Source: Azonexaceae bacterium (GTDB taxonomy: Bacteria > Pseudomonadota > Gammaproteobacteria > Burkholderiales > Rhodocyclaceae). Taken from it: 13,702 nt of DNA. The position numbers were made by a program, and so were the translations under genes. The notes beneath the pieces were generated by a model, which was given only the letters and a program-made list of their open reading frames with translations, searched no databases and had not been told where the DNA came from. Below, piece by piece: positions 1,020 through 8,208 of this stretch. Numbering within the stretch: the stretch's first letter is position 1; each line of letters begins with the position of its first letter. Location of the stretch: positions 1 to 13,702 of the forward strand of contig SSTA01000283.1 in the NCBI GenBank assembly GCA_009469685.1, in the 5' to 3' direction.

Positions 1020-1066
1020 AGATAGCTCCCATGAGCCGCCCTCTGGCGGCATTCCGGAGTCGGATC

Positions 1067-1351
1067 ATGAAATCAAGCGCCCTCGCGTTTTTCGTTACCC
1101 TTGCCCTGCTGGCTGTTCCGGCAGTGGCCCACGAGAATGGGCACCACTGGGAACGCCATTCCCACGATCACCACGGCCACTGGAAGCACCGCGGCCCGGG
1201 ATATCGCTACGATCAGCCTATGGTGATCTATCGTCCTTACTATGCACCGCCCCCTGCAGTGGTCTATCAACCCGCCTACTACGGTTACCGGACGGAGCCT
1301 GTGATCACCATAGGAGTGGGCTTACCACCCATCGTCATTCCCCTAAGGTAA
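1067..1351 (+). CDS. Small secreted His-, Tyr- and Pro-rich protein
   Basis: A 94-residue protein of unknown function. The ATG at 1067 is chosen over an in-frame ATG at 1031 because GGAG at 1056-1059 sits 7 bases upstream and because it gives a clean signal peptide: MKSS, a hydrophobic core (ALAFFVTLALLAVP) and an AVA cleavage site before HE. The mature part begins with a His-rich segment (nine His in about 26 residues, with HH and HDHH clusters). A Tyr/Pro-rich segment (YRPYYAPPP, YQPAYYGY) follows, and the C-terminus VITIGVGLPPIVIPLR is hydrophobic. Similar short periplasmic or envelope proteins are common in proteobacteria, but I know of no assigned role. The His cluster suggests metal binding (inference). 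It stands alone between the phosphatase and the convergent prfC, and no catalytic motif is seen. Confidence 0.75.
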   Translation: MKSSALAFFVTLALLAVPAVAHENGHHWERHSHDHHGHWKHRGPGYRYDQPMVIYRPYYAPPPAVVYQPAYYGYRTEPVITIGVGLPPIVIPLR

Positions 1352-3140: not shown

Positions 3141-4373
3141 TCAGCGTGCGACCAGCGGGCATCCACCTTCCGCTAGCGGGCGAAAGGCGGTTTCTCCCGG
3201 GATGGTCTCAAGAATCCTCAGGTAATCCCAAGCCACGGCAATTTCTCCCGGCTTTCTGACCTGCAGGAGAAGGACATCGTGGACCATGCGCCCATCCGGC
3301 CGCAGAATCCCTTTGCCGACAATCGGATCCCGTATTGGAATCTCCCGCATCTTGCTCACCACCGCGCGGCTCTCGACCGTTCCGGCGGCGCTCACGGCCT
3401 TGAAATAATGGGTAAGCGCCGAATATACCCCTGCCTGGAGGTCGGTCGGCATCGAGCCGCTCCTCTCGTAGAAGCGCCGCGACCAGATGCGCGATTCCTC
3501 GTCTCGGTTCCAGTAAAAAGCATGGGTAAGCTTCAGCCCCTGCGCAAGCTGCGGCTGCATGACATGAACGTCGCTCAGCGTAGTCGCGACGGCAGCCAGC
3601 ATGATCTTCCCACGGCTGACTCCCAGAAGATCGTAGGCCTGGCGGACAGACGCGATCAGGTCGGTTCCCGCATTGACCAGCCCAATGACTTCAGCGCCGG
3701 ACTGAGCCGCCAGGCGAAGCTTGCCGAAAAGATGCTCTTCGCCCCTGGCGTGCGTAATGCTTCCGACGACGGTTCCCCCGTTCTTCTGAATGACCGTGGT
3801 GAGAGACTGCTGAACGTCTCGCCCGAACTGGTTATCCACGACCACTAGAAACCAGCGACGCGCGCCGAGACGAGTCAATTCCCCACCGATCACCTGATTG
3901 AACGCGTAGCCATCGTACATCCAGTGGATACCGTTGGCTGCGCAGGCCTTACCCGTAAGCGCCGGAGTCATCACTCCGTTGTAGAACGTCACGACGTCCC
4001 GCTTCCGGATGACTTCCTGAACCGCCAGGGCGGTGGGTGACCCGACGACGTCGGCGATAACCTGTACAGTGGATCGATCGGTCCATTCGCGGGCGATGCG
4101 TGCGGCAACCGCGGGTTCGTTCTCGTGATCTGCAAAGATGACGCGTACGGGTTTCCCCAAGAGCGTCCCTCCTGCGTCTTCAATCGCCAAACGCGCCGCC
4201 GTGACCGATCCTTGGCCAGCGATATGCGCGTAGCTGCCCTTCATGTCGAGCAACAGACCGATGGTGATCGTTTCGGGATCTCCCGCCGGGGTCGCGAAAA
4301 CCAAGCCGATCCTGCCCAGGATGGCGATCCCCACCCATAAGCGGCATATGGCTGAAATATATTGCTTGATCAT
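3141..4373 (-). CDS. Periplasmic type 1 ligand-binding protein (branched-chain amino acid ABC type)
   Basis: A 410-residue exported protein of the type 1 periplasmic binding fold (LivJ/Peripla_BP_6-like). The N-terminus shows a signal peptide ending near GLVFA before TPAG. The mature start ITIGLLLDMKGSYAHIAGQGS is the usual first strand and ligand loop, followed by AARLAIEDAGG and GKPVRVIFADHEN. VGSPTALAVQEV, the hinge strands (WFLVVVDNQFGRDV, AEVIGLVNAGTD) and QAGVYSALTHYFKAV are also typical of this family. I chose ATG 4373 over the TTG at 4385 because GGGG precedes the ATG and nothing useful precedes the TTG. No permease or ATPase gene lies nearby. The gene is divergent from a membrane hybrid kinase, which suggests the protein reports a ligand to the kinase rather than feeding a transporter (inference). 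The ligand is unknown. Confidence 0.88.
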   Translation of the reverse strand: MIKQYISAICRLWVGIAILGRIGLVFATPAGDPETITIGLLLDMKGSYAHIAGQGSVTAARLAIEDAGGTLLGKPVRVIFADHENEPAVAARIAREWTDRSTVQVIADVVGSPTALAVQEVIRKRDVVTFYNGVMTPALTGKACAANGIHWMYDGYAFNQVIGGELTRLGARRWFLVVVDNQFGRDVQQSLTTVIQKNGGTVVGSITHARGEEHLFGKLRLAAQSGAEVIGLVNAGTDLIASVRQAYDLLGVSRGKIMLAAVATTLSDVHVMQPQLAQGLKLTHAFYWNRDEESRIWSRRFYERSGSMPTDLQAGVYSALTHYFKAVSAAGTVESRAVVSKMREIPIRDPIVGKGILRPDGRMVHDVLLLQVRKPGEIAVAWDYLRILETIPGETAFRPLAEGGCPLVAR

Positions 4374-4447
4374 TGGCCCCAACAATGGAGAAGTTCTTTT
4401 TTTTCACTATTATGTGCGAACTCCTATCGTCCAGGTGATCGCAAGCT
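4374..4447. promoter_or_regulatory. Divergent intergenic region of the binding protein and kinase genes
   Basis: Only 74 bases separate the two divergent starts. The region is unusually AT-rich, with an 8-base T-run at about 4397-4404. TATTAT (4408-4413, +) and CATAAT (4414-4409, -) overlap and could serve as -10 boxes for rightward and leftward transcription. No convincing -35 box is seen for either. AGGTGA at 4433-4438 is a good Shine-Dalgarno for the kinase. Confidence 0.45.
4433..4438 (+). promoter_or_regulatory. Ribosome binding site deciding the kinase start
   Basis: AGGTGA lies 9 bases before the TTG at 4448 and 15 bases before the ATG at 4454. The spacing favours the TTG start; the choice changes the protein by only two residues. 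Confidence 0.55.
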
Positions 4448-7078
4448 TTGGTCATGCCCCTAGGCAATCGATTTCCCGCTCTCGTACTCGCGGCAGTAGT
4501 GGCCATCGGCCTCGCGCTCCTTGGAGCTTTCTCTTATTACAACGGGATCCACAGGGAATTTCTTGCCGCGAATTTCGATAGTGTCCATGGCGCAAGAACC
4601 TTGCTCAAGGCACAGGCTTTTCTTAAGCAGGCCCAGGATCGCCTGGAGCGCGCTGCGCTCCCCCAATCCAATCTGCAGCCCCTGCTCCGTCAGGCTGTTG
4701 ACGCCTTGTTCCAGGCCGCAAGCTACGGGGCGGAAGGTTCCGACGATGCGCGGCATCGCCGATCGGAGCTCACCAGCCGAACTCGAATTCTGCACAAGCA
4801 GGTCGAGCAATTGCTGGTTTCTGCTTCCGAGCCCGCGGTAACAGCCAGCCTGCCGACCATTGTTGCCCAAGTTCGGGGATTGGCGGAGGAGTTCGGCACC
4901 GCTGAATTGGAACACTGGGGAACCCTATCGTCCCTCAATAGCGAGCTTGCCCTTCGCATGGAACAGCTTCGGCTGTTCATTGCGGCAACCATCTTCATCT
5001 TCGTGGCCATCATGCTTATTCTGGCCCGTTCTCTCCAACGAACCCGCCAAGCCGAGAGCGCGCTACGCAACGCCAAGCGAGACACCGAAGCAATCCAGCA
5101 AACGACCCTTGACGCCGCGACGATCGGGATTGTCTACCTCAACATGGACGACCCGGAGCATCCCAGAGTCATCGCGGCAAACCGCCAGATGGCCACCATT
5201 CTCGGCATTTCCCTGGATCAATTGGTCGGCACATCGCTCACTCGGTTTTACGCCGATTTAAGCAGCTTTCAGGCCTCTATCGCCGAATTACGCAAGGTCT
5301 TGGCAAGCGGAGAAGTACTGCGCGGCGAGAAACTGCTACGCCGACACGACGGGAGTCTCTTCTGGTGTGCCTTTTCGGCCAAAGCCATCGACGCGACCGA
5401 TGCCTCCCGGGGGATAGTGTGCTTGCTCGAGGACGTCAGCGAGCAGAAGCGCGCCGAAGAAGAACTCGAATCGGCCAAGCGCGACGCCGAAAGCGCCAAC
5501 CGAGCCAAGAGCGAATTTCTCGCGAATATGAGCCACGAGATCCGAACTCCGTTCACCGGAGTCCTCGGCATGCTGGAATTGCTGCTCCAGTCCCGCCTCT
5601 TGCCAGAGCAGCGGCGCCATGCCGAATTAGCCCACCGCAGTACCCGAAATCTCCTTGCCATTGTTGACGACATTCTCGACCTCTCTCGCATCGAGAATGG
5701 CAAATTCGAACTCCATCCGGCCCCCACCGAATTGCGCCCGCTGCTTGAAGGAATCGTCCAGTTTCATCGTGTCCAGGGCGAAAAAAAGGGCTTGGAAGTC
5801 CAACCTCAAATCGATCCGGCCATTCCAGACTTCGTTGTTGTAGATGGCCTGCGCCTGCGTCAGATTCTCGACAATCTGATGGGCAACGCTTTGAAATTCA
5901 CCCCGCGCGGACGCGTGAACCTGGCTGCGGAAATCACCGCGTCCGAACCTGACCGGTGCCGGCTGCGTTTTACGGTCTCCGACACGGGAATAGGCATTCC
6001 GGCAACGCAGCAGGCCCGAATTTTCGAAAAATTCATCCAAGCCGATGGCTCCACGGCCCGCGTATTCGGCGGCAGCGGGCTTGGACTGGCGATCTGTCGG
6101 CAGTTGGTCGATCGTATGGGTGGAGAGATGGGCGTCAGCAGTTTCGAGGGACGGGGAAGTCGGTTCTGGGTGGAATTCGACCTCCAGGTCGTCCCTTCAC
6201 CGGGTTTGCGCGAACCTATGCCTTTAAACGCAGATCCCATCCGCCTCCCCGCCGGCGTGCGTGTTCTTGTGGCAGACGACAGCGATACGAATCGCGAAGT
6301 CCTTGCCGGCTTGCTCGAGGGCTTTGGGGCTGTCGTGATCCTGGCAGAAAACGGTGAGGAAGCCGTGCGTCTCGCCGCCAACGAGCGTCCCGACGTCATC
6401 TTGATGGATATCCAGATGCCCGGCTTGGACGGATACGAGGCCACCCGCTTGATTCGGGCGGCGGAGACCCTGGGCAAGCGGGTGCCGATTATCGCGCTCA
6501 CAGCCCACGCCATGGCGGGCGATCGCGAAAAATGCCTTGCCGCCGGCATGGACGATTACGTGTCCAAACCCGTCGCCCAAGAAGTGCTCGCGGCCTGTGT
6601 TGCACTTCAGCTTGCGTATGTTTCACCGGAATCCGTCTTGGGCGAGACCGAGGCATCGCCCCGCGCTGCTCCTTATCGAGGCCATATCCTGCTTGCCGAG
6701 GATGACGAATCGATTCGTACCGCTTGCCGTGGGCTCCTCGAACACTTGGGATGCCAGGTGACCACGGCGATCGACGGTGGCGAAGCCCTCGCGCTATTCG
6801 GCAGTGACGATTTCGATCTGGTTCTGCTCGATTGCCGGATGCCAGGGCTATCGGGCCAGGAAACGGCACGCCTGTGGCGCCAGAAGGAATTGGAGGCGCG
6901 ACGCATGCCGACTGCCATCGTTGCGCTCACCGCCCTGGCTTCCGCCGAAGATAGATCAGAATGCCTTGCCGCAGGCATGAACGACACCCTGGCAAAACCC
7001 TTCAATCAGGAAGATCTGGAAAAGCTGCTCGAGGCATGGCTGGGGCGCGATCCCCACCGGGAGTCCAAGACAGGGTAA
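4448..7078 (+). CDS. Membrane hybrid sensor histidine kinase (PAS-HisKA-HATPase-REC-REC)
   Basis: An 876-residue inner-membrane hybrid kinase. In order: transmembrane helix 1 (about 8-29); a mostly helical periplasmic sensor region (about 31-173); transmembrane helix 2 (about 175-194); a short coiled coil in place of a recognisable HAMP domain; a PAS domain (about 212-332, ending LEDVSEQKRAEEEL); and the HisKA H-box SHEIRTP with phospho-acceptor His363. The HATPase domain has N-box NLMGNALKF (476-484), G1 DTGIG (512-516) and G2 GGSGLGLA (541-548). Two complete receivers follow. REC1 is about 604-720 (Asp654, Thr685, Lys707) and REC2 about 746-862 (Asp795, Thr828, Lys850). No HPt domain is present and no response regulator gene lies nearby, so output must go through partners elsewhere. 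The divergent binding-protein gene is the likely sensory partner (inference). Confidence 0.93.
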   Translation: MVMPLGNRFPALVLAAVVAIGLALLGAFSYYNGIHREFLAANFDSVHGARTLLKAQAFLKQAQDRLERAALPQSNLQPLLRQAVDALFQAASYGAEGSDDARHRRSELTSRTRILHKQVEQLLVSASEPAVTASLPTIVAQVRGLAEEFGTAELEHWGTLSSLNSELALRMEQLRLFIAATIFIFVAIMLILARSLQRTRQAESALRNAKRDTEAIQQTTLDAATIGIVYLNMDDPEHPRVIAANRQMATILGISLDQLVGTSLTRFYADLSSFQASIAELRKVLASGEVLRGEKLLRRHDGSLFWCAFSAKAIDATDASRGIVCLLEDVSEQKRAEEELESAKRDAESANRAKSEFLANMSHEIRTPFTGVLGMLELLLQSRLLPEQRRHAELAHRSTRNLLAIVDDILDLSRIENGKFELHPAPTELRPLLEGIVQFHRVQGEKKGLEVQPQIDPAIPDFVVVDGLRLRQILDNLMGNALKFTPRGRVNLAAEITASEPDRCRLRFTVSDTGIGIPATQQARIFEKFIQADGSTARVFGGSGLGLAICRQLVDRMGGEMGVSSFEGRGSRFWVEFDLQVVPSPGLREPMPLNADPIRLPAGVRVLVADDSDTNREVLAGLLEGFGAVVILAENGEEAVRLAANERPDVILMDIQMPGLDGYEATRLIRAAETLGKRVPIIALTAHAMAGDREKCLAAGMDDYVSKPVAQEVLAACVALQLAYVSPESVLGETEASPRAAPYRGHILLAEDDESIRTACRGLLEHLGCQVTTAIDGGEALALFGSDDFDLVLLDCRMPGLSGQETARLWRQKELEARRMPTAIVALTALASAEDRSECLAAGMNDTLAKPFNQEDLEKLLEAWLGRDPHRESKTG

Positions 7079-7131
7079 ACTGCTGTCCTTTTCGCGAAGG
7101 CTGTCCAGCCGCCAATCCGATAGAGATTCCC

Positions 7132-8208
7132 ATGAGCACTCAGAACCTAGAAAACGTCAATGTCAGCGCCTTCGACGCGATGCCCACGCCGGAGGAACTC
7201 CACGCTCGCCTTCCGCTTTCCGTCAAGGCCGCCCACACCGTGAATCAGGGTCGCAGCACCTTGCGCCGCATTCTCGATCGCAAGGATCATCGCCTGTTCG
7301 CGGTCGTCGGCCCCTGCTCGATCCACGACCCCAACGCAGGCCTGGATTACGCGCGCCGGCTCCATGAGTTGTCCCGCGAAATCGGTGACACCATCTGCCT
7401 GGTGATGCGCGTCTACTTCGAAAAGCCACGCACGACAGTGGGCTGGAAGGGCTACATCAACGACCCCTACATGGACGATTCGTTCCGCGTCGACGTCGGC
7501 ATGGAAAAGGCCCGCGATTTCCTGTTGAAGATCAATGAGCTCGGACTGCCCACCGGTACGGAAGCCCTAGACCCGATTTCTCCCCAGTACTACGGCGACC
7601 TGATCGCCTGGACCGCCATCGGAGCCCGCACTACCGAGTCCCAGACCCATCGCGAAATGTCTTCCGGGCTCTCCACTCCCGTTGGCTTCAAGAACGGCAC
7701 CAGCGGCGATCTGGCTGTGGCCGTCAATGCCATCCTTTCGGCGTCCAAGCCCCACTCCTTTCTCGGCATCAATGGCCAAGGCCGCGTCGCCATCGTCCGC
7801 ACCAGCGGAAATCGCCACGGACACGTCGTCCTGCGCGGGGGGGATTCGCGACCCAACTACGATACGGTTTCCGTCTCGATGGCCGAGCAGGCGCTGACCA
7901 AGGCCAAGCTCCCCCACAACATCGTCGTCGATTGTTCCCACGCCAACAGCAGCAAGAAACCCGAGTTGCAACCCCTGGTGATGGCGGACGTGGTGAACCA
8001 GATCCGGCTCGGCAACAAATCCCTGGTCGGCGTGATGATCGAGTCGAACATCGAGGCCGGAAACCAGCCGATTCCCGCCGACCTCAGCCAATTGCGCTAC
8101 GGTTGTTCGGTCACCGACGCCTGCGTGGACTGGTCCACGACGGAAAAAATGCTGCGCGACGCTGCCATCCTGTTGCGCGATGTCCTTCCGGGCCGCCTGG
8201 ACGCCTGA
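7132..8208 (+). CDS. aroG: 3-deoxy-7-phosphoheptulonate (DAHP) synthase, type I AroG/F/H
   Basis: A 358-residue enzyme, close to the 350 of E. coli AroG. It condenses phosphoenolpyruvate and erythrose 4-phosphate, the first step of the shikimate pathway, in the cytoplasm. Visible motifs: VGPCSIHD (59-66, metal ligand C62), VYFEKPRTTVGWKG (94-107), GARTTESQTHRE (164-175), VDCSHANSSK (267-275, H270), and candidate metal ligands E304 and D329 (in SVTDAC). The start at ATG 7132 fits the family N-terminus; a longer frame reaches back to 6961 but overlaps the kinase. The Shine-Dalgarno is weak (AGAG at about 7122). The N-terminal extension before the barrel suggests feedback control as in the E. 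coli isozymes, but I cannot tell which aromatic amino acid inhibits it. It lies 53 bases after the kinase with no terminator visible between them. Confidence 0.95.
   Translation: MSTQNLENVNVSAFDAMPTPEELHARLPLSVKAAHTVNQGRSTLRRILDRKDHRLFAVVGPCSIHDPNAGLDYARRLHELSREIGDTICLVMRVYFEKPRTTVGWKGYINDPYMDDSFRVDVGMEKARDFLLKINELGLPTGTEALDPISPQYYGDLIAWTAIGARTTESQTHREMSSGLSTPVGFKNGTSGDLAVAVNAILSASKPHSFLGINGQGRVAIVRTSGNRHGHVVLRGGDSRPNYDTVSVSMAEQALTKAKLPHNIVVDCSHANSSKKPELQPLVMADVVNQIRLGNKSLVGVMIESNIEAGNQPIPADLSQLRYGCSVTDACVDWSTTEKMLRDAAILLRDVLPGRLDA

Follow-up and report, generated by a model that had tools for sequence, protein, structure and literature searches.

Here we describe a divergent gene pair in a 13,702-nucleotide stretch of DNA from an Azonexaceae bacterium (GenBank contig SSTA01000283.1; hereafter the window), in which a gene for a periplasmic binding protein of the LivK type (3141–4373, minus strand) and a gene for a hybrid sensor kinase (4454–7078, plus strand) are read away from each other. 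The two genes are likely to encode a single receptor, with the binding protein as its ligand-binding subunit, detached from transport. The protein is related to the LivK proteins of transport systems and is found here without a link to a transporter; it probably informs the cell of a chemical rather than importing it. The pair recurs across related genomes, genes for the LivH and LivM permeases were not found in its surroundings, and its binding proteins all fall on one side of a fully supported branch.

Conservation of the pair

The main genome set comprised 297 genomes, all from the family to which the Azonexaceae locus L001 belongs. With the window binding protein as the sole query, 36 of these genomes were matched at E ≤ 1e-90. 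The binding-protein matches listed fall at 44 places: 15 of them, all sensor-linked, score above 380 bits, and the other 29 score 331 bits or less. When the sensor region of the window kinase was used alone as a query, a divergent homologue was found beside all 15 of these nearest binding proteins, the weakest (L073) scoring 60 bits. With a profile of the full-length kinase, the neighbouring kinase came first in 14 of the 15 genomes (1100–1401 bits), the next kinases reaching at most 528 bits among the matches listed; the exception was again L073. At L073 the partner of the binding protein is a GGDEF-EAL protein and not a kinase.

A profile of the sensor (A3) matched 16 of the 297 genomes, namely the 15 already known and one more, G236. 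The G236 contig starts just upstream of the sensor gene and holds, reversed, the 5′ part of a binding-protein gene, a fragment that was recognised by eye in the three-frame translation. Because the divergent pair is present in all 16 family genomes with the sensor (one binding protein being this contig-end fragment), the pairing is beyond chance. At the profile threshold, none of the 297 genomes had a solitary sensor with no binding protein beside it. The loci from which profile A3 was made are among those that it finds, and what is new from its search is G236 and the absence of such solitary sensors; the sensor profile searches scored the best 7–10 candidates per genome at E ≤ 1e-6 and may miss remote sensors. 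The first-pass annotation of this DNA, made from its letters alone, had raised the prospect of binding-protein orthologues that do not co-occur with the kinase. We find instead that all 15 of the nearest adjoin the sensor, and that every one of the 16 sensors adjoins a binding protein.

The conserved unit is the pair, not its neighbourhood. Beside the kinase, aroG is found at 10 of the 15 loci; beyond the binding protein lie patatin (8 of 15) and mfd (9 of 15), and in the window this place, where relatives have patatin or mfd, is taken by prfC. At five loci the pair is kept and none of aroG, mfd and patatin was found (L062, L064, L065, L068 and L073; the first three are close relatives in the tree described below). 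One could argue that the pairing is merely a gene order inherited in one lineage and without function. The frequent presence of aroG beside the kinase is consistent with this, as is the spread of the pair, which in our samples was seen in one family only: the sensor was found in 2 of 399 genomes of the order and in 1 of 369 genomes of the class, each of them a member of the family that is included in the counts above. However, the pair has been kept while the identity of its binding proteins goes down to 46%, with different flanks and with a different output domain, and we find a functionless order hardly credible.

Separation from transport genes

The sensor-linked loci that we examined reach about 9 kilobases on each side, with L061 (10.2 kilobases) and L074 (6.9 kilobases) being whole contigs on which little or nothing is seen beyond the binding protein. 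Queries with LivH, LivM and LivF found nothing at any of the 15 loci, and a LivG query found, at two of them, ATPases that are only 25% identical and lie some kilobases off. The loci of the next relatives served as controls. In the first control set (20 of the 29 weaker binding-protein places, 38–42% identical), LivH was present at 19 and LivM at 18; in the second (loci L002–L029, 35–43% identical), LivH and LivM were both present at 27 of 28. Both sets together have LivH at 46 of 48 loci and the sensor at none of the 48. Homologues of the window protein are therefore not always linked to liv genes, a possibility that the first-pass annotation had named. The same annotation had noted that genes for a permease or an ATPase are absent locally, and we likewise found no permease and no ATP-binding cassette (ABC) ATPase among the 12 other window proteins scanned. 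With LivH and LivM at 0 of 15 loci, we rejected the binding protein as part of a transport operon.

In an unrooted tree, one branch supported at 100/100 separates the 16 sensor-linked proteins, window included, from 28 others; these 44 binding proteins come from the window, the 15 loci with the sensor, 20 weaker places and 8 of the 28 loci L002–L029. A liv-linked relative is also present in six of the 15 genomes with a sensor-linked pair.

The binding protein could alternatively be an orphan transport subunit that serves a liv-type permease encoded elsewhere, the kinase either regulating its expression or being unrelated. Matches to liv-type permeases occur in all 15 genomes (4–28 in each among the matches listed), and AgtS and AruS are examples of neighbours that can be unlinked (PMC11113362). 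The same paper reports two Pseudomonas aeruginosa kinases that showed no interaction with the binding proteins encoded next to them, which calls for caution about a shared receptor in the window as well. Nevertheless, we consider an orphan subunit unlikely, given the contrast between the sensor-linked loci and those of the relatives in LivH and LivM, and given that the binding protein accompanies the sensor in every case found. The pairing moreover persists at L073 with a GGDEF-EAL output, which simple control of expression would not predict.

As a separate observation, L089:6103-10522 encodes a hybrid kinase that has an MHYT sensor and an Hpt domain and, directly upstream of it, a 39%-identical binding protein; no liv genes were found there. 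In this case the binding-protein family has apparently been coupled to a kinase separately.

The binding protein

The binding-protein reading frame (minus strand) is open and encodes 410 residues from the ATG at 4373, with the TTG at 4385 as a possible alternative start. Its product matches Peripla_BP_6 at E = 1.8e-79 and 268.4 bits (gathering score 31.7) and, more weakly, Peripla_BP_5. Hydropathy reveals a hydrophobic stretch at the N-terminus, where about residues 1–28 (4290–4373) resemble a signal peptide whose cleavage site was judged by eye; these two results bear out the earlier description of a binding protein with a signal peptide. The structure model has a predicted local distance difference test (pLDDT) score of 87.4, and its nearest solved structures are 3n0w and 3i09, at 34–37% identity. 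Membership of the UrtA family of urea ABC transporters was rejected, as the protein scores 51.9 bits against the TIGR03407 cut-off of 492.75.

Solved structures of like fold bind, by their titles, aromatic acids, urea, amides or amino acids, and no single class of ligand is singled out. Gene neighbours were noted at five loci of transport-linked relatives, picked by eye out of 48: L002 has a GMC oxidoreductase and L076 an aldehyde dehydrogenase, each with a hydroxyisobutyrate-dehydrogenase-like gene, while L091 has an aldehyde dehydrogenase, L087 an AMP-binding enzyme and L084 a TctC protein.

When the sensor-linked binding proteins were compared with the others (14 against 26 rows), 53 positions were conserved in both groups and 12 were fixed differently. 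This comparison leaves out L074, which is cut by the contig end, L028 and L089, which are not liv-linked, and L073, the GGDEF row. Some of the positions changed in the clade lie on predicted helices 216–223 and 237–253, and our guess from the model is that these might form a docking face.

The hybrid kinase and its sensor

The kinase reading frame (plus strand) is likewise open and encodes 874 residues from the ATG at 4454; the TTG at 4448 is a possible alternative start. The database copy of the kinase (P0001) starts at this ATG, which leaves 80 bases between the divergent starts (4374–4453). The gap of 74 bases given previously is right if the kinase starts at the TTG and falls short if, as in P0001, it starts at the ATG. 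A scan of 301 bases for promoter-like sequence gave one sigma-70-like match between the genes (4386–4413, plus strand; shuffled mean 0.2).

Two hydrophobic stretches, at about residues 7–27 (4472–4534; within a model helix spanning 7–67) and 171–195 (4964–5038), are predicted from hydropathy to be transmembrane helices, and they enclose about 140 residues that form the periplasmic sensor region (about residues 28–170; 4535–4963). In the cytoplasm follow a PAS domain (PF13426; 5147–5443), a HisKA domain (PF00512; 5504–5701), a HATPase_c catalytic domain (PF02518; 5843–6187) and two receiver (REC) domains (PF00072; 6263–6598 and 6686–7018, the limits of the second being approximate), in the order PAS-HisKA-HATPase-REC-REC. 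The phospho-acceptor histidine (His 361 in the numbering of alignment A2) and the aspartates of both receivers (Asp 652 and Asp 793, located by motif) are present. The kinase is thus a two-transmembrane hybrid kinase with a periplasmic region, as first described.

No Hpt domain was matched in the window kinase by Pfam at E ≤ 0.001, and a separate Hpt protein is therefore expected. At 7 of the 15 loci a second kinase is encoded a few genes from the pair; the one that was scanned (L063:14730-17408) has the architecture HAMP-PAS-HisKA-HATPase-REC-Hpt. As a lead only, such a neighbour could supply the missing Hpt step.

The structure model of the sensor region is all-helical and consists of a single four-helix bundle (mean pLDDT 87.5). 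The region has no convincing Pfam match: the best E-value among 16 members was 0.0082, and the first member scored below every cut-off. A sensor profile searched against sequences of the PDB gave a best E-value of 0.21, for a protein other than LytS, and Foldseek found no PDB match to the model at E ≤ 0.001. Structural neighbours above that E-value include the direct sensors NarQ, Tsr and Adeh_2942, of which NarQ was also returned by VIA-align. Because VIA-align places many unrelated bundles at like Z scores, the likeness is one of fold class and not of kinship. These neighbours are in keeping with a kinase that senses a ligand of its own directly in the four-helix bundle, the binding protein beside it acting as a buffer or co-sensor. 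We regard direct sensing as distinctly improbable, since it leaves unexplained both the pairing with one clade of binding proteins and the lack of permease linkage in that clade.

In the receptor that we propose, the secreted binding protein would bind a small molecule present in the periplasm and dock on the membrane kinase at its four-helix-bundle sensor. The change that the ligand drives in the binding protein would then alter the sensor bundle, and the signal would run via the second transmembrane helix to the PAS and HisKA domains. Phosphate would go to both receiver domains and then, via the separate Hpt protein, to a regulator. We infer the physical docking, the control by ligand, the direction of the response and the Hpt partner.

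Exchanged outputs

At L073 (4921-7293) the partner of the binding protein, which still adjoins it, is a PAS-GGDEF-EAL protein and not a kinase. It has two hydrophobic stretches at places like those of the window kinase, and its sensor is 30% identical to the window sensor. Two further proteins, P0147 and P0148, combine the sensor with GGDEF-EAL. In P0006 and P0009–P0012, of about 605 residues, a glutamine replaces the phospho-acceptor histidine and the receiver domain is missing (rescanned for P0006, P0009 and P0012); to judge from their sequences, these are probably derived, kinase-dead receptors. It is an evenly balanced possibility that a LivK-type binding protein has turned into a dedicated receptor subunit and forms, with the four-helix sensor, one exchangeable input module for a hybrid kinase, for a GGDEF-EAL protein (L073) and for a receptor without histidine and receiver (P0006 and P0009–P0012).

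Comparison with known systems

The first-pass annotation likened the pair to LuxP/LuxQ or TorT/TorS. As a functional analogy this is supported by our comparison; as membership of the LuxQ or TorS family it is not, the scores lying below the cut-offs. LuxP is a binding protein that reports to a sensor kinase (PMC8534201), and the LuxQ sensor consists of tandem PAS-like domains, in contrast to the all-helical sensor predicted here. TorT and TorS are closer in that a binding protein is combined with a kinase that has an all-helical sensor, built of two stacked four-helix bundles (PMC8534201) where one is predicted here. The family models rejected both assignments: the window kinase scores 347.4 bits against a cut-off of 1200 for LuxQ (NF041947) and 405.8 against 676.5 for TorS (TIGR02956), the latter being by the name of its model also a hybrid kinase. 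TorS carries a C-terminal Hpt domain, whereas the window kinase has no match to one at the threshold given above.

XylFII–LytS, a xylose binding protein with a histidine kinase, is a further system in which, as in LuxP–LuxQ and TorT–TorS, the binding protein is the ligand-binding subunit of the receptor. It has a helical-bundle sensor as predicted here, but sharing a fold does not prove kinship. The binding protein XylFII is of the sugar type and its partner LytS is not a hybrid kinase, whereas the window pair combines a Peripla_BP_6 protein with a kinase that has two receivers. NspS–MbaA, a polyamine binding protein with a receptor for cyclic diguanosine monophosphate (c-di-GMP), involves another binding-protein family and another sensor. 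In that system an enzyme of c-di-GMP turnover is controlled by the binding protein, and the same is proposed for L073. With the LivK-type binding proteins of ABC transporters (3n0w, 3i09 and the liv operons) the window protein has its fold in common, and its next relatives adjoin liv genes; unlike these, the sensor-linked loci were found without LivH and LivM.

Of 11 characterised couples of binding protein and receptor, 10 are encoded by adjacent or nearly adjacent genes, and the receptors activated by binding proteins belong to several output classes, c-di-GMP enzymes included (PMC11113362). A search by titles and abstract openings, with subscription journals mostly outside its reach, found no published description of the present pair.

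Gene context in the window

The gene aroG (DAHP synthase; 7078–8208) lies directly downstream of the kinase on the same strand, and it is also found beside the kinase at 10 of the 15 related loci. By Pfam, the 12 other window proteins scanned comprise a piece of a methyltransferase (below the cut-off; ubiG by our reading), a HAD hydrolase (gph), RF3 (prfC), the DAHP synthase, a DUF1015 protein, HscB, five members of Fe-S assembly or Hsp70 families and one protein of 106 residues without a Pfam match. The last (1031–1351, plus strand) has a signal-peptide-like start and is rich in histidine, proline and tyrosine.

Discussion

Sensor kinases activated by binding proteins are already known as a class. 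What is new here is the LivK-type subunit, the exchanged outputs and a sensor for which Pfam offers no convincing match. LivK-type binding proteins are by default named as parts of amino-acid uptake, and several database copies of the present protein are indeed called 'branched-chain amino acid transport system substrate-binding protein'; one clade is linked here to a receptor and not to a transporter, and for this clade such an annotation calls for caution. The transport-type relatives serve as an internal control for the receptor-linked clade. The pair thereby offers a well-defined setting in which to study how a binding protein of transport turns into a subunit of signalling, which residues are altered on the way, and how phosphorelay and c-di-GMP outputs can share one input module.

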